Of a stretch of DNA of 64,000 nucleotides, positions 35,558-49,482 are shown one piece after another. The position numbers and the translations under genes are program-made. Every line of letters starts with the position of its first letter. Positions within the stretch are counted from its first letter, which is position 1. The notes below the pieces were generated by a model that saw nothing but the letters and a program-made list of their open reading frames with translations, had not been told where the DNA came from and ran no database searches. This DNA is from Candidatus Manganitrophus noduliformans (GTDB taxonomy: Bacteria; Nitrospirota; Nitrospiria; SBBL01; Manganitrophaceae), in the NCBI RefSeq assembly GCF_012184425.1, contig NZ_VTOW01000003.1:248001-312000 (forward strand). The letters run 5' to 3'.

Positions 35558-38338
35558 ATGGATCGCGATCGGGAAGGCATCCGAACGAGCAAGACCCAGT
35601 CAAAATTAAAGAACCCCATCGAAAAAAATCGGATCGGCAAGCGCTCTCCGTCGAAAAAAGGGGGTGAAGCGCCATTTGAATCGATCCATCTCCAGTGGAA
35701 GCGGTTTCTTCAAGGGCTTCCGCCCGAGGGGCCGCTGCGAAATGTGATCCTGGAGTCGTGGCGGCGGAGCCGCGCCGACGGCATCGATCCGGCACCGTCT
35801 CAACTTTCCCCCCGTCGCATTACAGAAGATGATCTTCAGGCTCGGCTCGACACGAACCGAGAGTTGGTCGATATCGCCGCCCTTCATCTGGATTGGATCT
35901 CCTCTTCATTGGCGCAGATCCTTCATGCCGTCTTTTTGGTCGATCGGGACGGCATCGTCCTTTATGCGACCGGAAACGATTCCCGCATGAGAGAGTCGTT
36001 CCATGTGGAACCGGGATATGATTGGTCCGAACGGAAAATGGGGACCAATGCGGTCGGAACGGCCCTGGCGGGGAACCAGGCGATCGCGGTCTCGGGGCCG
36101 GAGCATTTCATTCAACTGTTTCATCATTATGCCTGCACAGGGGTTCCGATCCATGCAAATGGCCAGGTCGTCGGCGCGATCGGCATCGGGACCCCCGTTG
36201 CGGACGGCCATCCGGAGCGGATGATCCTGACCTCCCACACGGCCTATGTCATCGAGCAGGAGTTGATGCATCGGCAGACCGCAAGCCAAGCGGAGTCGAT
36301 CAAAGCCGAGGCGATGATGCTCCTGTCCAACTCGCTCGATTATAAAACCATCCTTTCCATCATTGCGCGCCTGGTTGTCCCTCGGTTAGCCGATTGGTGC
36401 ATCATCGATATGGTCGAAGAGAATCAGTTAATTGTTCGATGTGCGGTGGCGCATGCCGATCCTTCCAAAAGCACCCTCGCACATGATCTTCGGCATCAGT
36501 CGCTCAATCCGGATGTGCCTTATGGCGCTCCTCGGGTGACACGGACCGGTCGATCGGAGCTCTACCCTGAAATTTCCGATTTGGCCAAGAAGGAAGGGGC
36601 CTCGGATGAGAGGCACTTTCGCTTGATCCAGCAAATGAATGCGATCTCAGGTATGGTGGTGCCGATTCCGGGTCGGGGTCGGGTGATGGGGGCGATCACC
36701 TTCATCTCGGCAGAATCGGGCCGGCGTTATAACCGGGTCGATCTGGCTCTCGCGGAAGATCTCGCCCGCCGGGCAGGGCTTGCTATTGAGAACGCGCAGC
36801 TCTATCGCGCGGCCCAAGAAGAAATCGCGGAGCGAAAGCGGACGCAAGAGGCGCTGCGTCGAAGTGAGGAGCGGTTTCGCCAGGTGAGCGAGAGCGGCAT
36901 CGTGAGCCTCGCCTTCTTCGATCTAACCGGGCGGATTACCGATGCCAATGATGCGTTTCTCAAAATGATCGACTTTACACGGGAGGAACTCCTCGAAGGG
37001 AAAGTGCGTTGGGATCAACTGACGCCGCCGGAATGGATGGAGCGGACACGGCAAGCGGTCCAAGAATTTAAGACGCGAGGCCGGTGCACCCCTTATGAGA
37101 AAGAATATTTCCGAAAAGACGGCACCCGGTTCTGGGGTCTGTTCGGCGGCGCCATGCTTGAAAGTGGAGCGGAGGGGGTTGCCTTTGTGGTCGATATCAC
37201 CGAGCGCAAGCGGGCGGAGGCGGCGCTTCGGAACAGCCGGGAACAGCTCCAGGCGATTCTCGATAATACGACGGCCGTGGTTTATCTGATGAGCATCGAT
37301 CATCGGTTCATGATGGTCAACCGGCAATTTGAAAGGCTCTTTGATTTAAAGAAAGCAGAGGTGGACGGCAAATCAATCGATGACCTCTTCCCTAAAGAGG
37401 TGGCCGATGCTTTCCGCGCCAATAATGAAAACGTGCTGGAAGCCGAACACGCTTTGGAATTCGAAGAGGAGGTTCCGCTGGTGGACGGCGTCCACGTTTA
37501 CCTTTCCATGAAGGTTCCTCTCTTCGATCAAACCGGGAAACCGTATGCGATCTGCGGCATCTCCAGCGACATCACCGATCGAAAGCGGATGGAGGAGACC
37601 CTCAGGCAAAAGACCCGCGAGGCGGAGGAGGCGAGCCGGGCCAAATCACAGTTTGTGTCGATTATCTCGCATGAGCTGCGAACGCCGCTCAACGCCATCA
37701 TCGGTTACTCCGGTCTCCTGAAGCGTCCCGAATTTACCGAACGGCCGGGCAAGCGGTCGGAGATGAACGACCGTATTTACTACAACGCCCACATTCTTTT
37801 GGAGCTGATCAACAATCTTCTGAACCTCAACCGGATGGAGGCGGGGCAGATGCCGGTGGAGGCGGAGACGGTGTTTCTCGCCGACGTGGTCGGCGGCATT
37901 GTCGAGAATCTCAGGCCGATGGGAGAGGAGAAGGGGCTGAAGGTGGCGTTCATCAATGAAGACGGCCCGCTGCCGATTCACTCCGACTCCAAGAAGATCG
38001 AGCAGATCGTCACCAACCTCATCTCCAACGCCATCAAATTCACCGATCACGGCGCGGTGACGGTGCGGCTGTCGGACCGCTCGGCCGAGCAGCGGGCCGT
38101 CATCGAAGTGTCGGACACCGGCATCGGGATCGGCGAGGGGGATCTTCCGCGTCTTTTTGAGCCGTTCTACCAGGCCGATCCTTCCGATACCCGATCTTAT
38201 GAGGGGACCGGATTGGGGCTCTCCATCGTGAAGAAATTTACCGAACTGCTCGGAGGGACCGTCCGGGTGGCGAGCACGTTGGGGGCCGGGGCGACCTTCA
38301 CCCTCTCCCTCCCCTATGAACGGAAGCCTCCGTCGTAA
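35558..38338 (+). CDS. cytoplasmic histidine kinase with AcoR-type N-terminus
   Basis: A 926-residue soluble sensor kinase with no membrane segment. Residues about 50-230 resemble the sensory part of AcoR/DhaR sigma54 activators (NVILESWRRSRADGIDP, then a GAF-like region with WSERKMGTNAVGTAL). A second GAF (about 245-425) and two PAS domains (about 440-550, 560-680) follow. Next come HisKA with His705 in [15 protein letters not shown] and a HATPase with TNLISNAIKF, DTGIGIG and GTGLGLSIV. No receiver domain is attached and no cognate regulator lies beside it. A tandem paralog follows. Confidence 0.88.
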   Translation: MDRDREGIRTSKTQSKLKNPIEKNRIGKRSPSKKGGEAPFESIHLQWKRFLQGLPPEGPLRNVILESWRRSRADGIDPAPSQLSPRRITEDDLQARLDTNRELVDIAALHLDWISSSLAQILHAVFLVDRDGIVLYATGNDSRMRESFHVEPGYDWSERKMGTNAVGTALAGNQAIAVSGPEHFIQLFHHYACTGVPIHANGQVVGAIGIGTPVADGHPERMILTSHTAYVIEQELMHRQTASQAESIKAEAMMLLSNSLDYKTILSIIARLVVPRLADWCIIDMVEENQLIVRCAVAHADPSKSTLAHDLRHQSLNPDVPYGAPRVTRTGRSELYPEISDLAKKEGASDERHFRLIQQMNAISGMVVPIPGRGRVMGAITFISAESGRRYNRVDLALAEDLARRAGLAIENAQLYRAAQEEIAERKRTQEALRRSEERFRQVSESGIVSLAFFDLTGRITDANDAFLKMIDFTREELLEGKVRWDQLTPPEWMERTRQAVQEFKTRGRCTPYEKEYFRKDGTRFWGLFGGAMLESGAEGVAFVVDITERKRAEAALRNSREQLQAILDNTTAVVYLMSIDHRFMMVNRQFERLFDLKKAEVDGKSIDDLFPKEVADAFRANNENVLEAEHALEFEEEVPLVDGVHVYLSMKVPLFDQTGKPYAICGISSDITDRKRMEETLRQKTREAEEASRAKSQFVSIISHELRTPLNAIIGYSGLLKRPEFTERPGKRSEMNDRIYYNAHILLELINNLLNLNRMEAGQMPVEAETVFLADVVGGIVENLRPMGEEKGLKVAFINEDGPLPIHSDSKKIEQIVTNLISNAIKFTDHGAVTVRLSDRSAEQRAVIEVSDTGIGIGEGDLPRLFEPFYQADPSDTRSYEGTGLGLSIVKKFTELLGGTVRVASTLGAGATFTLSLPYERKPPS

Positions 38339-38357
38339 ATCTCCGTTTTCCCTCCTC

Positions 38358-38386
38358 TTGAACCGTTATTTTTGTAGGCGTAAGAT
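38358..38386 (+). promoter_or_regulatory. sigma70-like promoter of the second AcoR-type kinase
   Basis: TTGAAC (38358-38363), a 17-base spacer and TAAGAT (38381-38386). It matches the promoter of the upstream paralog in sequence and spacing, as expected if gene and promoter were duplicated together. Confidence 0.6.
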
Positions 38387-38420
38387 AGATAGAGTGAACA
38401 GGCTTACATTCAAGAGATGA

Positions 38421-38438
38421 GCTTGGGTCATCCCAAGC
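38421..38438 (+). promoter_or_regulatory. 5'-UTR hairpin at the ribosome binding site
   Basis: GCTTGGG and CCCAAGC form a perfect 7-bp stem with loop TCAT, directly before the GAGGA ribosome binding site of the second kinase gene. It may affect translation; the paralog upstream lacks it. Confidence 0.45.
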
Positions 38439-38448
38439 GAGGATGAAG

Positions 38449-40893
38449 ATGGATCGCGATCTAGAAAAGCTGCGGTCGAGGAAAACATCTCGAAGTCAAG
38501 AGACCGCAGAGCAAACGAGAAAAGGGATTGGAAAGTCTTTCCCATCGGCACACATCAAGATGAATCAAGAAAACCCCATCCATCAACAGTGGAAACAATT
38601 TATGGAAGGGGTTCCCCCCGAGGGGGGGCGAGGCGTCATCCTGGAATCGTGGCAGCGATGTCGCGCCCAAGGCGTCAATCCGGAGCAGGTTTTATTCCAA
38701 CGTATTGCGGAGGAGACCCTTCAGCGTCGACTCGAATCGAATCGTGAGCTGATCGAGATCGCCGCCCTCCACCTCGATTGGATCTCCTCGTCATGGACCC
38801 GTCTCCCGCACGTTTTGTTTTTGATCGACCGCGACGGCATCGTCCTCTACGTCACCGGGAACGATTCCGAACTTCGGGAAAAACTCCACCTGATTCCGGG
38901 CTACGATTGGTCCGAGCGGCAGGTGGGGACCAACGGCGCAGGAACGGCTTTATCGGCAGATCAGGCGATTTCGATCATCGAGATGGAGCATTTCGCCCGG
39001 CCTTTCCACGCCTATACCTGCACCGGCGCGCCGATTCATCTGAACGGAAACGGCATCGGCGCGATCGGCTTCGGGACCCCCGGGGCCGACGACAATCCGG
39101 AGCGGGTGATTCTGACGGCGCATACGGCGTATGTCATCGAACAGGAGCTGACGCATCGGCGGACAGCGCGTCAAGCGGAGTTGATGAAGGCCGAGGCGAC
39201 GGCGCTCCTGGCGAACTCGCTCGACTATAAAACCACCCTCTCCAGCGTGGCCCATCTTGTCGTTCCCCGCTTTGCCGACTGGTGCTTGATCGATATGGTT
39301 GAAGAAGACCAGTCGCTTCTCCGTTTGGCCGTGGCGCAAGCCGACCCTTCCAAGAACCTCCTCGCGCGCGACCTGCAACGTCAATCGCTTAATCAGAATG
39401 TGGGGGTCGGCGCCCCGCAGGTCATACGGATCGGTCAATCGGAACTCTACCCGGAGGTTTCCGATCCTCTCTTGCGGCAAGCCGCTTCGGATGAGAGGCA
39501 CTTAACGCTGATCCGGGGGATTCATCCAAAGTCGGTGATGGTGGTTCCGATCGCGGGCCGCGATCGGATTTTGGGCGCAATTACCTTTATCTCGGCGGAA
39601 TCGGGGAGGCGATATAACCCGACCGATCTCGCCTTGGCGGAAGACCTCGCCCGCCGGGCCGCGCTGGCCATCGAGAACGCGCGACTCTACCGCGCCGCTC
39701 AAGAAGAAATTGCGGAGCGCAAGCGGGTGGAAGGATCTCTGCGGCAGTCGGAAGAAAAATACCGGAACCTGTTCGAGACGATGGCGCAGGGGGTCGTTTA
39801 TCACAATGCGTGGGGAAAAATCATCTCGGTCAATCCGGCGGCGGAGCGGATCTTGGGGCTGACGTTGGATCAGATGCCGGGGAGGACCTCGTTTGATCTC
39901 TCCTGGCGGGCGATTCACGAGGATGGATCTCACTTTCCGGAAGAAAGCCATCCGGCGATCGTCGCGCTGAAGACCGGAAAAGCGGTGCGAAACGTGGTGA
40001 TGGGAATCTTTCATCCTCGGGAGGAGGCCTATCGTTGGATTAATATCAATGCCGTCCCGCAGTTCCATCCGGGGGAAGAGAAACCCTATCAGGTTTATAC
40101 CACTTTTGACGACATTACGGAACGAAAGCGGGGGGAAGAGGACCTCAAGCAAAAGACGCGGGAGGCCGAGGAGGCGAACCGGGCCAAATCGCACTTTGTG
40201 TCGATTATCTCGCACGAGCTGAGGACGCCGCTCAATGCGATCATCGGCTACTCCGGCCTTCTGAAGCGTCCGAATGTCGCTGAAGATCCCGCGAAGGGAG
40301 CGGAACGGATCGACCGGATCTACTACAATGCCCACATTCTTTTGGAGCTGATCAACAATCTTCTGAACCTCAACCGGATGGAGGCGGGACAGATGCCGGT
40401 GGAGGCGGAGACGGTGTTTCTTGCCGATGTGGTCGGCGGGATTGTCGAGAATCTCAGACCGATGGGAGAGGAGAAAGGCTTAACGGTGGCGTTCATCAAT
40501 GAAGACGGCCCGCTGCCGATTCACTCCGATTCGAAAAAGATCGAGCAGATCGTCACCAACTTGATTACGAACGCCATCAAATTCACCGACCACGGCTCGG
40601 TGACGATTCGGCTCTCGGATCATTCGACGGAACAGCGCGCTTGCATCGAAGTCTCCGACACCGGGATCGGCATCGGCGAGTCCGATCTGCCGCATCTCTT
40701 CGAGCCGTTCTACCAGGCCGATCCTTCCGATACCCGATCTTATGAGGGGACGGGATTGGGGCTCTCGATTGTCAAAAAGTTCACCGAGCTGCTCGGGGGG
40801 ACGGTCCGGGTGGCGAGCGCATTGGGGGCCGGGGCGACCTTCAAGGCGATTCTTCCTTACAAGATGCCCCACTTGAGATCGAAGGCCGCTTAA
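38449..40893 (+). CDS. cytoplasmic histidine kinase, paralog of the preceding gene
   Basis: An 814-residue soluble kinase with the same plan as its upstream neighbour but one PAS domain fewer: AcoR-like sensory region ([16 protein letters not shown]), GAF, one PAS (about 430-555), HisKA with His589 and HATPase. The kinase-core DNA is almost identical to that of the neighbour, while the N-terminal half has diverged. ATG 38449 is chosen because the paralog also begins MDRD; ATG 38443 is possible. The P450 gene begins only about 16 bases after the stop and may be cotranscribed. Confidence 0.88.
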
Positions 40894-40908: not shown

Positions 40909-42252
40909 ATGACTCCGAAACATCCCAACATGCCGCCGGGCCCGGCGGGAACGCCGCTGGTCGGGCAGCTTTTTCCTTTTCGACGCGATCCGATCGATTT
41001 CCTGATGCGGCTTGCCCGCGAGTACGGGGATATCGCCCGCTTCAAGATCGGATCGCAAGAGCTGTTTCTTTTCAACCATCCCGATCTCATCAAAAACGTC
41101 TTAACGGTCGATCACCGCAGCTTTATCAAGGGGCGGGGACTTCAGTGGGCGAAGCGCCTTCTGGGTGAAGGGCTTTTGACCAGCGAGGGGGAGTTCCACC
41201 GCCGCCAGCGGCGGATCGCGCAGCCGGCCTTCCACCGGCAACGGATCGGGGCCTACGGCGAGATGATGACCGGCTACGGCGTCCGGACGCGGGAGCGCTG
41301 GGAGGAGGAGAAACCGTTCGATGTCTTAAAGGAGATGATGCACCTGACGATGATGGTTGCGGCGAAGACCCTCTTCGATACCGAGGCCGAGTCGGAGGCG
41401 AAGGAGATCGGGGAGGCGCTGTCGGTCTCGGTCGAATTTTTCAACCGGTTTACCCTTCCCTTCGCCGATCTTTTGGCGGAGCTGCCGGTGCCGAGCACCC
41501 TCAAATTTCGAAAAGCAAAGCGCCGCCTGGATGAAACAGTCTACCGGATGATCGCCGAGCGGCGGGCGAGCAAAGAAGACCGAGGCGATCTTCTCTCGAT
41601 GCTCCTTCACGCCACCGACGAGGAAGGGGGGACCGGCGGGATGACCGACCAACAGCTTCGGGATGAAGCGATGACGATCTTCCTGGCGGGACATGAGACG
41701 ACCGCGAACGCGCTGACCTGGACCTGGTATCTGCTGTCGCAACATCCCGACGCGGAGACGCAACTCCACGCCGAGATCGACGCGCTGGGAGGAAGGCTCC
41801 CGGCGGTCGACGATCTGCCGAAGTTGACCTATACCGAGAAGCTGCTGGCCGAATCGATGCGGCTATATCCCCCCGCGTGGCTGCTCGGATATCGCGCGAT
41901 CCGGGATTACCCGGTCGGCCGGTATGTCGTTCCGAAGGGGGGGATCGTCCTGATGAGCCAATATGTGATGCATCACGATCCCCGTTATTATCCCGATCCT
42001 TTCCGGTTCGACCCGGAGCGTTGGGAGCCGGCGGCGAAGGCGGTCCGTCCGAAGTTTTCGTATTTCCCTTTCGGCGGCGGCCCCCGCGTCTGCATCGGCG
42101 AATCGTTCGCCTGGATGGAGGGGATTCTCCTGATTGCGACCCTCGCCCAACGCTGGCGGCTGCGGTTGGTTCCGGGCCATCCGGTGGTGCTTCAACCGCT
42201 GATCACGCTGCGGCCCAAACACGGAATGATGGTAACGGCGGAGCGGCGTTAG
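40909..42252 (+). CDS. cytochrome P450
   Basis: Heme-thiolate monooxygenase of 447 residues. The I-helix motif AGHETTA is near residue 260, the K-helix ExxR is ESMR near 313, and the heme ligand is Cys395 in [11 protein letters not shown]-terminal [14 protein letters not shown] matches the proline-rich hinge of soluble bacterial fatty-acid-type P450s; no membrane anchor is seen. No ferredoxin or reductase gene is adjacent, so the redox partner is elsewhere. It follows two soluble kinases closely, and its stop overlaps the convergent trmJ stop. Confidence 0.93.
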
Positions 42253-43016
42253 TTCGATTTCTTTTTTCCCGCCGCCCGGAGCATCTGCCGGAACATCGCC
42301 CGCAACAGCTTTGCCTCTTCCGAATCAACCTCCGCCCGCATCAAAATTTCCCTCAGCCTTCTTATCGTTTTTTTCTTTGCAGGCGGTTTCAAAAAGCCGA
42401 TTTCTTCCAGCGTCCGTTCCATCTCATGAAAGAAAGATTCCGTTTCGGCAACAGAGGCGATCCCTGGCGCGGGCCGGCCGTTCGGATCCGAGGAGGGAGA
42501 GGGGGCGAGGGAACTTGCCCGGTGGAGGGCGGCGGCGACCAGCAAGACCGCCTGGGCGAGATTCAGCGAGGAGAAACGGGGGCCGGTCGGGATGAAGGCG
42601 GTTCGGTGGCAGCGGGAGAGGGCTTCGTTGGAGAGGCCGGTTCCTTCCGAACCGAAGAGCAGCGTGATCTTTTGACGGCCGGCCCGCTCCCAGATCTCCG
42701 CGGCCAGCGTCTCGATCGATTCAACCCCGGCCCCTCTTCTCTTTCGCCCGCTGATGCCGACGACCCACTCCGTTTCGGAGAGGGCCGCGGAGAGATCGGG
42801 AAACAGCCGGGCTTCATTGAGAATCTCGCGGGAGCGGTAGGCCATCCGGATCGATTCCTCGCCGCGCGGGTCGGTAGGGGAGACGAGCGCCAAGCGGCTG
42901 AATCCCATGTTCTTGAGGGCACGGGCCGCGCTTCCGATGTTGCCGGGGCTTTCGGGTGAGACAAGACAAAAGGTGATCCGGTCGATGCGTGATGAAGGAG
43001 GGGGCGCGCTGTCCAC
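42249..43016 (-). CDS. trmJ: TrmJ-type tRNA/rRNA 2'-O-methyltransferase
   Basis: SPOUT-class RNA methyltransferase of the TrmH/TrmJ group, 255 residues. Motif 1 is SPESPGNIGSAARALKNMG (residues 20-38), motif 2 includes LLFGSEGTGLSNEAL and motif 3 is SSLNLAQAVLL. A C-terminal helical extension of about 80 residues fits TrmJ, which methylates position 32 of tRNAs. It is on the same strand as the stressosome operon and follows its last gene by 7 bases, so it may be cotranscribed by position only. Confidence 0.87.
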   Translation of the reverse strand: MDSAPPPSSRIDRITFCLVSPESPGNIGSAARALKNMGFSRLALVSPTDPRGEESIRMAYRSREILNEARLFPDLSAALSETEWVVGISGRKRRGAGVESIETLAAEIWERAGRQKITLLFGSEGTGLSNEALSRCHRTAFIPTGPRFSSLNLAQAVLLVAAALHRASSLAPSPSSDPNGRPAPGIASVAETESFFHEMERTLEEIGFLKPPAKKKTIRRLREILMRAEVDSEEAKLLRAMFRQMLRAAGKKKSN

Positions 43017-43023
43017 GATCGAT

Positions 43024-44649
43024 TCAACCGGCCGGATCGCACTGTTGAGGGAGCCAGAGGGTAAATTGCGTTCCGGCCCCCGGCGTGCTCTTCACCTTGA
43101 TCTTTCCGCGCAGCCGTTGAACGATGTGGTGGACGATCGTCAGGCCGATCCCGCTCCCTTCATATCCCGACGCGTGGCTGAACGTGTCGAAAATGCGGGC
43201 CAGCCGGTCGGCCTCGATGCCGATCCCGGTGTCCGTCACGACGATTTGAGCCCCCTCTTCTTCTTTCTCCTTCGCCTTCCGAACCCGGATCTGGATGCTT
43301 CCGGTGGGGGTGAACTTGGCCGCGTTGGACAGGAGATTCGAGAGGATATGTTTGATCAGGTCCGGGTCGGAGACGCGGATGCGCACCCCCGGCTCGATCC
43401 GGCTCTCCGCCTCCACCTCCTTCCCGAAGAGGAGGGGAATCAGCTCGTTTTGGATCTGCTCCCGGACCAGCTCGCTCAGATCGACCTCGGCCGCCTCGGT
43501 TGCTTTGGAGCGGAACTGGTCGAGCCCCTTTTCGAGCATCCGGAGAAGGTCTTTCGAATTGGTGAGGATCCGCTCGACCGCCGATTTCTTTTTTTCGTCA
43601 TCCATGTTCGCGTCCCGAAGGAGCGAGGCAAATCCGATGATGGCGTTTAACGGCGTTTTCAGATCGTGAGAGGTGTAGGAGACGGAGGTTTGGTGCTGCA
43701 TCGCCTCTTCTCGAAGTTTCAGGTTGGTCCGGGAGAGGACCTCGTTCGTCCGGTGAAGATATTGGTAGGCCTCCCGGTTCAGCAGTCCGGCGGTCATTCG
43801 GGAGGAGAGAATCTCAATGGGATCTTCCTCCTCGGGGGAGAGGAGCGGCCTGCGAAGGGCGATCAGCAGCACCCCCTTGGTGTACGTTTGGTAGGAGAGC
43901 GGCGAGAGGACCAATCCCTCCAACTCCTTTCCGGCCAAGATTCTTCCAAGAGAAGGATCGGCCGCGACCTCGGCGCGGGAGAGAACCGTCCGCCGCTGCT
44001 TTGAGAGCACCTGCGCCAGCAGCCCTTGGGTTTCCCCCGTGAGCGCGTCGGGGTCGCTCTCCAGCCCCGCAAAAATACCGCCGGTCATCGTCCAGCGGAA
44101 GTGCCCCTCCGACCGGTCTCGAAAGAGGACGGCGGCTCCCGCCGCGTCGAACATCTGCATGATCTTCGTCGCGATCTCGGAAGGGAAGGGACCGCTTGAG
44201 ACGGAGGCGAAGAGAAGATTCCCGACTTCGGTCATCCGCTTGAAACGCTCCGCATCTTTGACCGCCCGGTCATAATAGTATTTTGACCGGAGGTTGCTGT
44301 GGACGCGGGCCAACAGCTCCCCCTTGTTGACCGGCTGGGTCAAATAGTCGATCGCCCCCAGCTCGATGCCGCGGACGCGGCTTTCGAGATCGTAATAGGT
44401 GGCGGAGATGATGATGACCGGGATCACCTCGGTCTGTCGATTTTTTTTGAGGCGCCGGCAAACTTCGAACCCGTCCATGTCGGGCATATTGATGTCGAGG
44501 AGGATCAGGTCGGGCCGCTCCTCGGCGGCGCGGGCCAGGGTTTGGGCGCCGTTTTCGGCGGAGATGACCTGGAAGCCCTCGGTCTTTAAAATTTTCTCCA
44601 GGATATACCGGTTGGTTTCGGTATCATCCACGACTAAAACGGTCGGCAT
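43024..44649 (-). CDS. receiver-GAF-histidine kinase fusion protein
   Basis: A 541-residue soluble protein with an N-terminal receiver (Asp52 in LLDINMPDMDG), a central GAF-like region (about 135-290), HisKA with His328 in [15 protein letters not shown] and a HATPase (NLLSNAAKF, DTGIGIE, GSGIGLTIV). ATG 44649 has GGAGG upstream and gives the standard receiver N-terminus; ATG 44700 is an alternative adding 17 residues. It is the last gene of the stressosome operon, so a receiver-controlled kinase is the terminal step of the pathway as encoded here. No DNA-binding output is present. Confidence 0.85.
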   Translation of the reverse strand: MPTVLVVDDTETNRYILEKILKTEGFQVISAENGAQTLARAAEERPDLILLDINMPDMDGFEVCRRLKKNRQTEVIPVIIISATYYDLESRVRGIELGAIDYLTQPVNKGELLARVHSNLRSKYYYDRAVKDAERFKRMTEVGNLLFASVSSGPFPSEIATKIMQMFDAAGAAVLFRDRSEGHFRWTMTGGIFAGLESDPDALTGETQGLLAQVLSKQRRTVLSRAEVAADPSLGRILAGKELEGLVLSPLSYQTYTKGVLLIALRRPLLSPEEEDPIEILSSRMTAGLLNREAYQYLHRTNEVLSRTNLKLREEAMQHQTSVSYTSHDLKTPLNAIIGFASLLRDANMDDEKKKSAVERILTNSKDLLRMLEKGLDQFRSKATEAAEVDLSELVREQIQNELIPLLFGKEVEAESRIEPGVRIRVSDPDLIKHILSNLLSNAAKFTPTGSIQIRVRKAKEKEEEGAQIVVTDTGIGIEADRLARIFDTFSHASGYEGSGIGLTIVHHIVQRLRGKIKVKSTPGAGTQFTLWLPQQCDPAG

Positions 44650-44719
44650 ATTCTCTCTTCCTCCTTCAAAATATGGGTTGATTGAATCGGCTTGGCTCAT
44701 TTCCGTCGGCTCACCTTTC

Positions 44720-45109
44720 TTAAGCGCTTGCGGTCGATCGATTGTCGCCGTCCTTGATAATTCGATAGACCGCGTCGATCACTTCCCGGTATTTGATCGG
44801 CTTGGAAAAATAATCGGCGCATCCGAGGTTCAGGCACCACTCCCGGTCTCCCGGCAGGGCGTCGGCGGTGACGGCAATGATCGGAAGCGAGGGGATCTTC
44901 TTGTGGAGGAGGGTCACCGCTTCGTACCCGCTCATGCCGGGAAGACGCATGTCCATCAGGACGATATCGGGTTTTTCCTTTTCGGCTTTGCGGACCGCCT
45001 CTTTCCCGTCGGTCGCCTCCAGCACCTCGAATCCTTCCTTGTTGAAGACGCGCTGAAGGACATACATGTTCACCGGCGTGTCTTCGACCAGTAAAATCCG
45101 TATCGGCAT
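44720..45109 (-). CDS. single-domain response regulator
   Basis: A 129-residue stand-alone receiver with DD-like acidic pocket ED at residues 9-10, Asp53 in VLMDMRLPGMSG, the conserved Thr/Ala in AVTADAL and Lys in FSKPIKY. It follows the RsbT-kinase gene by 3 bases and precedes the receiver-kinase gene, so it is the likely substrate of one or both kinases. DivK/Spo0F-type receivers of this kind pass phosphate to another protein rather than bind DNA. Confidence 0.9.
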   Translation of the reverse strand: MPIRILLVEDTPVNMYVLQRVFNKEGFEVLEATDGKEAVRKAEKEKPDIVLMDMRLPGMSGYEAVTLLHKKIPSLPIIAVTADALPGDREWCLNLGCADYFSKPIKYREVIDAVYRIIKDGDNRSTASA

Positions 45110-45112
45110 CGA

Positions 45113-46465
45113 TCACTCCTGAAACTTCGCGCCGACCCCTGTTTTGGCCATCGGAAGGGTGAAGGTGAAGGTCGATCCTTCTCCCTCGCTGCTGTTGGCC
45201 CAGATCCTTCCCCCCATCAGCTCCACCAGCTGTTTGGAGATCGAGAGTCCCAAGCCGGTCCCGCCGTATTTACGGGCGGGGGTGTTGTCGATTTGATGGA
45301 ACGGCTCGAAGATGTAAACCAAGTTTTTCTGGGCGATTCCGATCCCGGTGTCTTGAACCGACACGGCGATTTCCCGTTCCTCCTTCACGGGCAGGGCCAA
45401 GCTCACGAGAATCGAGCCGGCGGGGGTGAATTTCACCGCATTGCTCAAGAAATTGAGAAGGATCTGCCGCACGCGCGCTTCATCGGCAAAGACCTGAGGA
45501 AGGGAGTCGGGGGCGACGAAGCGCAAGGTCAGCCCTTTTTTCTTCGCCAAAGGCTCCATGCTGGTGATCGCCTCTTGCGCCACCTTGCGTAGATCGATCC
45601 ACATCTTCTCGATCCGGACCTTTCCCGCCTCGATCCGGGAGAGATCGAGGATATCGTTGATCAGCTGAAGGAGCCGCTCGCCCGAGTCTTGAATCATCGT
45701 TACCTGTTTTTCCTGTTCGCCGGAAAGATCGCCGTCGATCCGGTCGAGGAGGATCTGGCTGAGGGCCAGGATCGAGTTGAGGGGGGTTCTCAGCTCGTGA
45801 GACATGCTGGCCAGGAACGACGACTTCATCTGATTGGCGCGGGAGAGCTCGACGTTTTTTTCATCGATCTCGCGATAGAGGGCGATGATCCCTTCGTTGG
45901 TGACGTTGAGCTCATTGTTCAATTGTTCGATCAATTGCTCTTTTTCGCGAAGGGAGGTGACGAGCTCTTCGATGTCGGGCTGCTGGGCGAGGGTCTCGTG
46001 CAGGCGCGCCATCCGCCCTTCATCGAGCCCTTGCGCATAGAGATGCCCGACCTCTATCCGGCCGCACGCCTGGGTCCCTTTTCCCAAGACGGTCTGCATC
46101 TCGAATTCATCCAAGAGGCGTTTGGCCGAAGCGATTCCAAAGCCCCGCCCCGGCGCGAAGCGGTAGGCCCCTTGCAGGATCTCGTCGAGATGGGCGATGC
46201 CGGGGCCTTTGTCGGAGAGAACGAAGGCGATCGACCAGGTTGATCCCTCTTGAACGGCAGACAGGGTCATCTCCCCCGACTTGGCATACTGAATGGTGTT
46301 GCGCATCAGCTCCGAGAGGGCGATGATCAGCCGGTTCTGCTCCCGGCGCGGGATCTCCAGGTGATCGAGAACCGTCCGGATTTTGTTCCGAACGGTCAAG
46401 AGCCGGCTCTGTTTTCCGATTGAGAGCGATAAAACTTTCTTTTCCGTGAGGGAACCCATCATCAT
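45113..46465 (-). CDS. RsbT-like ATPase fused to a histidine kinase
   Basis: A 450-residue fusion. Residues about 10-130 form an RsbT/RsbW-type GHKL module (ALSELMRNTIQYAKSGE, SDKGPGIAHLDE, GRGFGIASAKRLLDEFE). A coiled coil (about 165-210) leads to HisKA with His223 in [12 protein letters not shown] and a second, canonical kinase HATPase ([25 protein letters not shown]). The start ATGATGATG overlaps the stop of the upstream phosphatase gene, indicating coupling. The RsbT-like module beside rsbR/rsbS suggests that the kinase docks on, or is released from, the stressosome. That is an inference from domain order. Confidence 0.85.
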   Translation of the reverse strand: MMMGSLTEKKVLSLSIGKQSRLLTVRNKIRTVLDHLEIPRREQNRLIIALSELMRNTIQYAKSGEMTLSAVQEGSTWSIAFVLSDKGPGIAHLDEILQGAYRFAPGRGFGIASAKRLLDEFEMQTVLGKGTQACGRIEVGHLYAQGLDEGRMARLHETLAQQPDIEELVTSLREKEQLIEQLNNELNVTNEGIIALYREIDEKNVELSRANQMKSSFLASMSHELRTPLNSILALSQILLDRIDGDLSGEQEKQVTMIQDSGERLLQLINDILDLSRIEAGKVRIEKMWIDLRKVAQEAITSMEPLAKKKGLTLRFVAPDSLPQVFADEARVRQILLNFLSNAVKFTPAGSILVSLALPVKEEREIAVSVQDTGIGIAQKNLVYIFEPFHQIDNTPARKYGGTGLGLSISKQLVELMGGRIWANSSEGEGSTFTFTLPMAKTGVGAKFQE

Positions 46466-47490
46466 CCAATTCGTCCGACGACCACCGTGGCGTCGTCTTT
46501 CGGGCGGCTGTGGTCTCTCAACAGGAGAGAGCCGAGGAGAAGGGGAGACGCCGAGGCCGATTTGCCATAATCGGCCGGATCCCACTTGGTTGAAATCCCG
46601 TCGCTCGTAAGAACAAAAACGTCCCCCTTTTCGAAGGGAAACGACTCTTCACGAAATCGCGGCGTGACCACCCCGAGCGAGCCGTTCATTGAAATCGGTC
46701 TGGCCGGGTGCGGCCCGTAAATCCGGCAATCGATGTTGCCGACCCCGGCGTAGACCGCCCGTCCTTCTTTCAGGTCGATCCGGAGAATCCCGACGACCGC
46801 TCCCTGCGTCCGCTGGAGCGCGCGATGAAGCCGGTCGAGAACGGCGTCGAGGGGGAGCCGGCCGGTTCCATTGAGCCCCTCCCGCGCCGCTTGGGCCGCC
46901 TTTTTTGCCCCCAGGCCGTGTCCCAGGCCGTCGATGACCGCCACCTGCAGAGAATCGCCGCTTTGCCCGAACCAGACCCCGTCACCGTTATCGATCTCTC
47001 CCGGCTTCGGCCGGGTGAGCGCTTCGCAGTCGAACAGGTTGTCGGAAGAGGGGCCGTTGCTCCAGATCCGCGAGACAACGACCGTTCCGGGGAAGCCTCC
47101 CCTCGGACGCGTCGTCTCGGAGTAAATCGCGAAGTCATCCGAGAGGCGCCGGATGGCGCCGAGCCCCCCTCCCAATGTTCCTGCCGTCGAATAATGGTCT
47201 CGAAGCGCCTGCTCCGGATGAGGGATGCCGGGGCCCCGGTCTTCCGAGATCATGAGAAGGCTTCGGCCGCGCAGATCCGATTCGGTCACGCCGTACCGGA
47301 TGACCGGCAAGACGGCGCGGTGTTTTTCCAGATTGGTCGCCATCTCCGTGGCGACCAGGGCGACATCCGAACATTTCTCCTCGGAGAAGCCGACCGATTC
47401 CGCCAGGCGGACCAATCGGCGCCGGATCTCGCCTGCCCATGCCGCTCCTTCGGGAACAATCACACAGAGCTCCGTTGCTTTCAGCGCCAT
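46462..47490 (-). CDS. RsbT-like ATPase fused to SpoIIE/RsbX-type phosphatase
   Basis: A 342-residue protein. The N-terminal GHKL module (about 1-140; VALVATEMATNLEKH, SEDRGPGIPHPEQ, GGGLGAIRRLSDDF) is RsbT-like. The C-terminal PP2C/SpoIIE domain (about 165-342) has VIDGLGHGLGA and TSDGIS with metal-binding Asp residues, and resembles RsbX, which dephosphorylates RsbR and RsbS to reset the stressosome. It overlaps rsbT by 10 bases and the next gene by 4. Confidence 0.87.
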   Translation of the reverse strand: MALKATELCVIVPEGAAWAGEIRRRLVRLAESVGFSEEKCSDVALVATEMATNLEKHRAVLPVIRYGVTESDLRGRSLLMISEDRGPGIPHPEQALRDHYSTAGTLGGGLGAIRRLSDDFAIYSETTRPRGGFPGTVVVSRIWSNGPSSDNLFDCEALTRPKPGEIDNGDGVWFGQSGDSLQVAVIDGLGHGLGAKKAAQAAREGLNGTGRLPLDAVLDRLHRALQRTQGAVVGILRIDLKEGRAVYAGVGNIDCRIYGPHPARPISMNGSLGVVTPRFREESFPFEKGDVFVLTSDGISTKWDPADYGKSASASPLLLGSLLLRDHSRPKDDATVVVGRIG

Positions 47491-47888
47491 TTCGAAATCG
47501 TCACCCGCGTCCCTTTCCCGACTTCCGACCAGATGTCGAATTCGTCCACCAGCCGTTTCGTTCCCGGCAGGCCGTATCCCAACCCGTTGCTGGTCGAATA
47601 ACCTTCCTTCATCGCCAGGCCGATGTCAGGAATTCCGGGGCCCTTGTCGTGACAAATAATCCGAAGGCCGATGCGGACCCCATTCCGGACCCCCTCGATC
47701 TCCATCGTTCCGCCGCCGGCATATTTCATCATGTTCCGGATCAGCTCGCTGACCGCCGTGGTGATGCGCGTTTGATCGACCAGGCTGAACCCGAGCGCCT
47801 GCGCCTGAACGCGGACCTCCTGGCGGGCCCTGACCAGATCGACTTCATTCGAAATCGAGAGGCGGGTTGCCCGGCTAACCGTGACCAT
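47481..47888 (-). CDS. rsbT: stressosome kinase RsbT
   Basis: A 135-residue serine/threonine kinase of the GHKL family that phosphorylates RsbS and RsbR and is then released to activate a partner. Boxes are ELIRNMMKYAGGG (N box), HDKGPGIPDIGLA (G1) and LGYGLPGTKRLVDEF (G2). I chose ATG 47888, preceded by GAGGAG, over an in-frame ATG at 47948 that lies inside rsbS. It overlaps rsbS by 14 bases. The classical partner phosphatase RsbU is not encoded here. Confidence 0.9.
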   Translation of the reverse strand: MVTVSRATRLSISNEVDLVRARQEVRVQAQALGFSLVDQTRITTAVSELIRNMMKYAGGGTMEIEGVRNGVRIGLRIICHDKGPGIPDIGLAMKEGYSTSNGLGYGLPGTKRLVDEFDIWSEVGKGTRVTISKWR

Positions 47889-48312
47889 TGCGCGCGCGCT
47901 CCTCTTCCCGACCGAGCTCCCTCGATTCCGCGCCGTCTGCGACGGCATGATCCTCCCATGCGATCCTCTCCCGCAGAAGCTGCAGGCCCCGTTCGACGTT
48001 CAATGCGGTCGGAATCTGTTTTAGCTCCAAACCGAGCTCGACCAGGGTGATGGCGACGGAGGGCTGTATCCCGACCACCACCACCACCGCGTTCATGATC
48101 CGCGCCATCGAGGCGGTGTCGGAAAGGACACGGCCCAGGAACGAATCGACGATATCGACGACCGAGATATCGATGATCACCCCGCGGGCGGAGGTCTGCT
48201 CGATCCTGCCGAGGAGATCGGTCTGCATTGTCATGGCGACCTGGTCCTGAAGATCGGTTTGAATCGAGACGAGAAGGGTGTCGCCGACTTTGATGATCGG
48301 AATTTTTTCCAT
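47875..48312 (-). CDS. rsbS: stressosome scaffold RsbS
   Basis: Single STAS-domain antagonist that sequesters RsbT in the stressosome. Ser57 in VDSFLGRVL corresponds to the RsbT-phosphorylated Ser59 of Bacillus RsbS. Length is 145 residues; the last 20 or so are charged and extend beyond the usual domain. The gene directly abuts rsbR upstream and overlaps rsbT downstream. Confidence 0.92.
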   Translation of the reverse strand: MEKIPIIKVGDTLLVSIQTDLQDQVAMTMQTDLLGRIEQTSARGVIIDISVVDIVDSFLGRVLSDTASMARIMNAVVVVVGIQPSVAITLVELGLELKQIPTALNVERGLQLLRERIAWEDHAVADGAESRELGREEERARNGHG

Positions 48313-49224
48313 TTAGCTCCGTCCCTTCCGGGCCTGCGCCGTCTGGGCCGCTGCAATTCCCTTCTCCAGCAGGTTCACCCCGTTCCGGGCCTCCTCGGTC
48401 ATTTGTTGTTTGGTCATCCGGAGCGCCAGCTTCAACCCCTCCGCCATGGTCGCCCGCGTTTGAATTCCGGAAAGATCGACCCCCAGGTGAACGATCGTCT
48501 GCGCGATGGCAGGCGAGACCCCGGTGATGATCACCTCCGCGCCCAACAGTCGGGTCGCCGCGACCGTTTTCATGATGTGATTGGCCACCAGGGTGTCTAC
48601 GGTTGGGACGCCGGTGATGTCGAGGATCGCCACGGTGGCCGTGGTATCGACGATTTTCTGAAGAAGTTTTTCCATGACGGTCATCGTCCGTCTGGAATCG
48701 AGGGTTCCGATGAGCGGCAGGGCGAGAATCCCCTCCCAAATCTTGACGACCGGGGTGGAGAGCTCGGTCATGTCGAGCTGTTGTCGAGCGATGACCTCTT
48801 CGCGGTTGTTCAGGTATTGCTCGAAGGTGAGCAATCCCATCTGGTCGAGAAGAAGAGAGAGCGGCATTACTTCGCTGGAGAAGGTCTCCTCATTCTTGGC
48901 AAGCGGTTGGAGCATCGGGAGGACTATTTCTTTGAGACTGAAAATGAAGACGGCCGTTTCGGTCGGAGAGAATCCTCTCATGACCCGATCCCGCGAGACC
49001 TCCTTGAGGAATTCGACGATCGGCGCCGTTTTCGGATCATCCGGACTGGAGGCCCCGCTCTGTATCACGTTTTCGAGCAGGTCGAGGAACTCGACGCATT
49101 GGCGCCGAAGCTCATCCGAAGTGACCCCTCCCTTGCCTGCCAGAGGAAGTTGCCGCTTCACCCAGTTCTCCAGGATTTCGTCTTTTCGCTTTCGCAAGAT
49201 TTCCAGAAATTTTTGTCCCTTCAT
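48313..49224 (-). CDS. rsbR: stressosome sensor RsbR
   Basis: Co-antagonist that forms the stressosome shell with RsbS. The 303-residue protein has a helical N-terminal domain (about 1-145) of the RsbRD type (FLEILRKRKDEILENWVK, GFSPTETAVFIFSLKEIV) rather than a globin-fold or PAS sensor. The C-terminal STAS domain (about 155-275) has LDITGVPTVDTLVANH. Thr211 aligns with the RsbS phosphosite, and Thr243 in AQTIVHLG is a candidate second site. It is the first gene of the operon, with a promoter-like pair about 60-90 bases upstream. Confidence 0.9.
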   Translation of the reverse strand: MKGQKFLEILRKRKDEILENWVKRQLPLAGKGGVTSDELRRQCVEFLDLLENVIQSGASSPDDPKTAPIVEFLKEVSRDRVMRGFSPTETAVFIFSLKEIVLPMLQPLAKNEETFSSEVMPLSLLLDQMGLLTFEQYLNNREEVIARQQLDMTELSTPVVKIWEGILALPLIGTLDSRRTMTVMEKLLQKIVDTTATVAILDITGVPTVDTLVANHIMKTVAATRLLGAEVIITGVSPAIAQTIVHLGVDLSGIQTRATMAEGLKLALRMTKQQMTEEARNGVNLLEKGIAAAQTAQARKGRS

Positions 49225-49312: not shown

Positions 49313-49482
49313 AGGTTGGAAAAACATTTCTTAGAATACGCAGAGCCCTTAAGGAAGTCAATCCCCTGCCTTTCCATCATACCGTTCAGGCAGAGTTTTA
49401 GACTGTAAGGGAGATGACAAAACGATCCGAACGGGGTAAAGTAGCGATGATTTATCATTCCACTCCACCGACGCGAGAAATT

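Follow-up and report, generated by a model that had tools for sequence, protein, structure and literature searches.

Gene Content and Organization of the Operon

The window (64,000 nucleotides; contig NZ_VTOW01000003.1, positions 248,001 to 312,000) belongs to a 5.17 Mb genome from the genus Candidatus Manganitrophus (Nitrospirota). It was found to contain seven packed genes on the minus strand, from nucleotide 43024 to 49224, encoding RsbR, RsbS, RsbT, a phosphatase, a histidine kinase, a single receiver and a receiver-kinase. The open reading frames and Pfam domains bore out the genes, order and strand given by the sequence-only reading. The features, in window coordinates, were as follows.

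49333..49361 (-), promoter-like TTGACT-17-TATTCT upstream of rsbR, a consensus match only
48313..49224 (-), rsbR, RsbRD_N sensor domain and STAS
47875..48312 (-), rsbS, single STAS
47481..47888 (-), rsbT, switch kinase, HATPase_c/HATPase_c_2; the frame can open at 47948
46462..47490 (-), phosphatase, RsbT-like domain (about residues 1-140) and RsbX-type PP2C domain (about residues 141-342)
45113..46465 (-), histidine kinase, RsbT-like domain, conserved linker and HisKA-HATPase; the frame can open at 46585
45863..45919 (-), linker core of the kinase, NNELNVTNEGIIALYREID, joining the RsbT-like domain to HisKA
44720..45109 (-), single-domain receiver, Response_reg
43024..44649 (-), last gene, receiver, GAF-like, HisKA and HATPase; the frame can open at 44700
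42249..43016 (-), TrmJ/YjtD-family RNA methyltransferase, 7 bp downstream of the last operon gene

The rsbR and rsbS genes abut, rsbT and the phosphatase gene overlap by 10 bp, and 3 bp separate the kinase and receiver genes. The most likely starts of rsbT (47888) and the kinase gene (46465) give overlaps of 14 bp for rsbS/rsbT and 4 bp for phosphatase/kinase. All three overlaps noted earlier were thus present; with the longest open reading frames these two would measure 74 and 124 bp. For the last gene 44649 is the probable start, with AAGGAGG ahead of it. No DNA-binding output and no dedicated output gene was encoded in the operon. The TrmJ-family gene was found directly 3' of the last operon gene in all four genus relatives examined, and it may be the eighth and last gene of the transcription unit. 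Its position could reflect a tie of stress signalling to RNA modification, or mere co-transcription.

The Stressosome Core and the RsbX-Type Phosphatase

RsbR contained an RsbRD_N domain (81.5 bits) followed by a C-terminal STAS domain in Pfam, and it matched Listeria RsbR (7b0u) over almost its full length. The conserved threonines in its VDTLVAN and IAQTIV motifs, which correspond to B. subtilis T171 and T205, are the acceptors expected of a stressosome protein. RsbS, a single STAS domain, matched solved RsbS chains (6jhk, E 3e-35) and carried the conserved acceptor serine in IVDSFLGR, which corresponds to B. subtilis S59. RsbT shared 52% identity with the ORF that takes the place of RsbT in the Listeria sigB operon; this record is unannotated there, and order and similarity served to identify its genes. 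The three RsbT-like domains of the window scored 120, 57 and 43 bits against Listeria RsbT, and at best 8 bits against the RsbW-position ORF; RsbT is a GHKL switch kinase distinct from RsbW. The N-box, G1 and G2 (GHKL boxes) were intact in all three.

The phosphatase showed HATPase_c_2 and SpoIIE matches in Pfam, so the RsbT/SpoIIE domains described earlier were present. RsbX had not been mentioned, yet the PP2C domain matched B. subtilis RsbX (3w40) as well as 3zt9; within the Listeria sigB operon it matched the RsbX-position ORF (49 bits) and not the RsbU-position ORF. From this similarity the phosphatase is RsbX-like, with a predicted role in feedback. An RsbX-type PP2C directly after RsbT is the arrangement of RSTX modules, and from the R, S, T and RsbX-type matches the operon therefore holds the full minimal R-S-T-X set, its X carrying an extra RsbT-like domain. 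A contig search with the phosphatase as query returned two close relatives only.

The Histidine Kinase and Its Linker

The histidine kinase contained HATPase_c_2, HisKA and HATPase_c matches in Pfam. The linker ELxxTNxGxxALYxELxEKA was found between its RsbT-like domain and HisKA. A profile built from eight such linkers gave seven strong matches (E<=1.4e-20; next best 5e-4) in 396 Nitrospirota genomes, which include some of the source genomes, and all seven were kinases of the same operon slot. Among 72,556 plasmids the profile had 17 matches, every one a slot kinase; 15 came from D. radiodurans strains, and therefore represent few independent events.

The linker was kept in the slot kinases of Variovorax and Halobaculum, both without an RsbT domain, and in those of G193 and Caballeronia, where the RsbT-like domain has decayed with loss of the N-box and G1 residues. 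These four cases rule out a constant need of the kinase for an RsbT domain, and the domain is therefore not essential to the module. The linker was absent from an RsbU_N kinase of another Nitrospirota class (G089, below) and from the Paraburkholderia, Alloyangia and Phaeobacter kinases, and so is not universal. It could possibly act as a generic signalling helix. AlphaFold2 models of the kinase (mean pLDDT 52) and the last protein (36), made from 2-3 sequences, were too poor for use.

Receivers and the Last Protein

The residues of two-component proteins (HisKA His, N/G boxes and receiver Asp) were present in the operon. By reading, the single receiver contained intact Asp and Lys boxes. The last protein showed Response_reg, HisKA and HATPase_c in Pfam, which agrees with the receiver and kinase domains assigned to it before; the GAF domain was only marginal, at 17.4 bits against a cut-off of 28.6, and this score was repeated in a second family member. 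In its receiver the Asp was kept and the switch Lys was substituted by Gln. The corresponding receiver-kinases of other families and phyla contained Glu or His in place of the switch Lys; the G089 protein was unlike them.

Conservation of the Gene Order

The operon was kept in four other genomes of the genus, and this order is therefore not due to chance. In G005 (L070, CP114561.1, 3953000-3967000) the last kinase gene, a P450 gene and an AmpG-like gene were each split over frames, which suggests sequencing errors in this MAG. In the window, nucleotides 35558-40893 of the plus strand contain two tandem paralogous histidine kinases, whose kinase ends are nearly identical, and after them a cytochrome P450; this P450 and one of the two kinases were also found near the operon in relatives.

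An RsbT-like match to the kinase N-terminus at E<=1e-15 was found in 12 of the 396 Nitrospirota genomes. Five genomes of another family of the same class (f5: G023, G120, G193, G214 and G343) contained the order R-S-T-(T+X)-(T-HK-REC-REC)-(REC...HK-REC), the first operon genes of G023 being lost at a contig end. In G089, which belongs to the same phylum and another class, the kinase slot was occupied by RsbU_N-HisKA-HATPase, followed by REC and REC-HATPase. RsbU_N is the receptor of RsbT. The two slots are equivalent, which we counted in favour of an RsbT-controlled kinase.

On plasmids, the core R-S-T-(T+X)-HK was found in D. radiodurans MP1, Deinococcus sp. KNUC1210, Sphingomonas aliaeris, Paraburkholderia, Alloyangia, Caballeronia, Variovorax and Phaeobacter, and in the archaeon Halobaculum a REC followed, as R-S-T-(T+X)-HK-REC. 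The genes concerned in D. radiodurans R1 are DR_RS15570-15595 of MP1. No relative was found in the viral contigs searched. The genome search proposed with the sequence-only reading, for rsbR-rsbS-rsbT together with a GHKL-HisKA fusion, thus found this co-occurrence in other Nitrospirota, D. radiodurans, Phaeobacter, Sphingomonas and Burkholderiales. The suggestion that the exact chain is singular did not hold and was dropped, since the same order recurs in other Nitrospirota, Deinococcota and Proteobacteria (Sphingomonas, Phaeobacter and Burkholderiales).

Relationships of the RsbT-Like Domains

A tree was built from 53 RsbT-like domains. The phosphatase-borne domains formed one side of a branch with support of 99/95, and the kinase-borne domains one side of a branch with 93/82 (not starred). 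The stand-alone RsbT proteins needed two changes, and a single clade for them was not rejected (p 0.36). The branches of this tree were long and the exact placement is therefore unsure. Judged from these sequences, the phosphatase-borne, kinase-borne and stand-alone domains are separate groups across phyla. The ATP-binding boxes of the fused domains were intact in most members, all Manganitrophus included.

Search for a Sigma-B Route

A sigma-B/RsbU system elsewhere in the genome, as the target of RsbT, had been named as one finding that would overturn a two-component output, and none appeared. RsbU_N had no match genome-wide, the control being positive only in B. subtilis. SpoIIE of Pfam gave three matches in the genome, the operon phosphatase and two others that were read as Stp/PrpC-like PP2C and rejected as RsbU; a protein combining RsbU_N and PP2C, as in the SigB cascade, was not found in the genome. 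No sigma factor of the SigB/F/G class was found in the genome, where four sigma factors scored far below the model cut-off (best 134 bits against 234). By reading, the sigma factors comprised RpoD, two RpoD/RpoS/RpoH-like proteins, one FliA-like protein and ECFs.

Three of the four best HATPase_c_2 matches in the genome were in the operon and of the RsbT type. The others, classified in part for an RsbW-type anti-sigma kinase, included many with a kinase H-box or long frames. The STAS matches were RsbR, RsbS, a 579-aa frame for a probable SulP transporter, and a pair of small stand-alone proteins (L035 and L036, G000:C1). These two are mutually similar and contain a Lys and a Ser, respectively one each, at the acceptor position; no cognate kinase was found for them among the HATPase_c_2 matches classified. 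A 150-aa frame (L109, G000:C1:597978-598268 -) matched RsbRD_N at 36 bits; its length leaves no room for an additional STAS domain.

The lack of matches to RsbU_N, to another RsbU/RsbX-type phosphatase and to a SigB/F/G-class sigma factor in the genome makes two-component proteins, with no SigB route, a well-supported predicted output of RsbRST. That the operon may be 'hard-wired' to two-component signalling, as first worded, we infer from the sequence.

Discussion

Previous studies reported RSTX modules with two-component outputs among eleven downstream architectures, HisKA/REC phosphorelays included (PMC9237108), and the V. vulnificus stressosome has been studied in vivo (PMC10014275). The V. 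vulnificus RSTX module with D1/D2 is alike in having RsbR-RsbS-RsbT-RsbX, then histidine kinase and receiver genes, and no SigB (PMC9237108, PMC10014275). The sensor of Vibrio RsbR is a globin, whereas that of Manganitrophus RsbR is RsbRD_N. In a Vibrio relative RsbX is a single-domain protein and the kinase is PAS-HisKA-REC-REC-Hpt without an RsbT-like match; in Manganitrophus both are fused to RsbT-like domains. A stressosome with two-component output is a real, conserved variant of a kind already published for Vibrio.

RsbU_N histidine kinases occur in stressosome operons of Proteobacteria (Heinz 2022, PMC9237108; PMC12143880), and RsbT activates RsbU by ordering a coiled-coil linker, an action whose extension to kinases has been proposed (PMC12143880). 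In such operons, as predicted for ours, a histidine kinase is the direct target of RsbT, and the RsbU_N form also occurs in Nitrospirota G089; they differ in having the receptor RsbU_N where the Manganitrophus kinase has an RsbT-like domain. Papers that cite the Moorella thermoacetica stressosome (PMC4976288, PMC12143880) give it a diguanylate cyclase output, which is likewise a non-sigma output of RsbRST, with a cyclase there and a histidine kinase in Manganitrophus. The Bacillus/Listeria system (RsbRST-RsbU-RsbV-RsbW-SigB-RsbX) shares RsbR, RsbS, RsbT, an RsbX-type phosphatase and the same acceptor residues; Manganitrophus differs in lacking RsbU and a SigB-class factor, and no RsbV/RsbW pair was found among the matches classified in its genome. 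No description of the RsbT-kinase fusion, the RsbT-RsbX fusion or the linker was found in the open-access papers searched; earlier stressosome papers may hold them. The novelty lies in the RsbT-domain kinase with its linker, which can be tested.

We consider it probable (about 0.6) that the operon encodes a minimal stressosome, with an RsbR/RsbS shell, RsbT as switch kinase and an RsbX-type reset phosphatase, whose direct client would be the histidine kinase. At rest, RsbT and probably also the RsbT-like domain of the kinase would be held on the shell. When RsbRD_N senses a signal, RsbT would phosphorylate RsbR (Thr) and RsbS (Ser), and the RsbT-type domains would be freed. The freed domains may act on the helical linker that precedes HisKA, by binding or reordering it, and turn the kinase on (or off). 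Its phosphate would go to the single receiver, to the receiver domain of the last protein, or to both. The RsbT-RsbX fusion, which its RsbT-like domain would direct to the shell, would dephosphorylate RsbR and RsbS and reset the complex. In this scheme we infer every interaction, which way the switch turns, the partners in phosphotransfer and what the output finally is.

It is rather unlikely that the operon follows a plain Vibrio-type arrangement, in which RsbT alone would act on the kinase, perhaps through Ser/Thr phosphorylation, and the fused RsbT-like domains would serve as passive tags for docking on the shell. The work of Heinz et al. and the slot kinases in which the RsbT domain is absent or decayed fit such a role; the maintenance of both fused domains as separate groups across phyla, and their mostly intact ATP-binding boxes, argue against it. 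In V. vulnificus itself no contact between RsbT and the kinase could be demonstrated (PMC9237108).

Two further readings appear much less probable. The RsbT-like domain of the kinase could be an output switch of its own that phosphorylates an unlinked STAS protein, the histidine kinase half being a parallel input; the two small stand-alone STAS proteins would offer a substrate, L036 having by reading its Ser at an RsbV-like position. They are unlinked, however, and neither an RsbW-type partner, among the HATPase_c_2 matches classified, nor a cognate sigma factor in the genome was found, which makes this switch improbable. The genes could also be neighbours for historical reasons, with kinases that respond to signals other than those of RsbRST, as the interaction between RsbRST and the kinases is a predicted one; set against the same order in several phyla, the overlapping genes and the RsbU_N domain on the G089 slot kinase, this is likewise improbable.

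The minimal stressosome with a kinase client may, more tentatively, stand for a recurrent class of output: the RsbT switch domain would have been grafted onto both the reset phosphatase and the effector kinase, with the conserved helical linker as control point. Partner switching would then have become a direct, partly intramolecular control of a kinase in several phyla, a generalization that we put forward as possible rather than probable. Partner switching on Ser/Thr and two-component signalling on His/Asp come together here within one operon. The kinase with its RsbT-like domain occurs in the laboratory models D. radiodurans, where it also has the signature linker, and Phaeobacter inhibens, so the step from stressosome to kinase, by which Gram-negative stressosomes without SigB may relay their signal, is directly testable.
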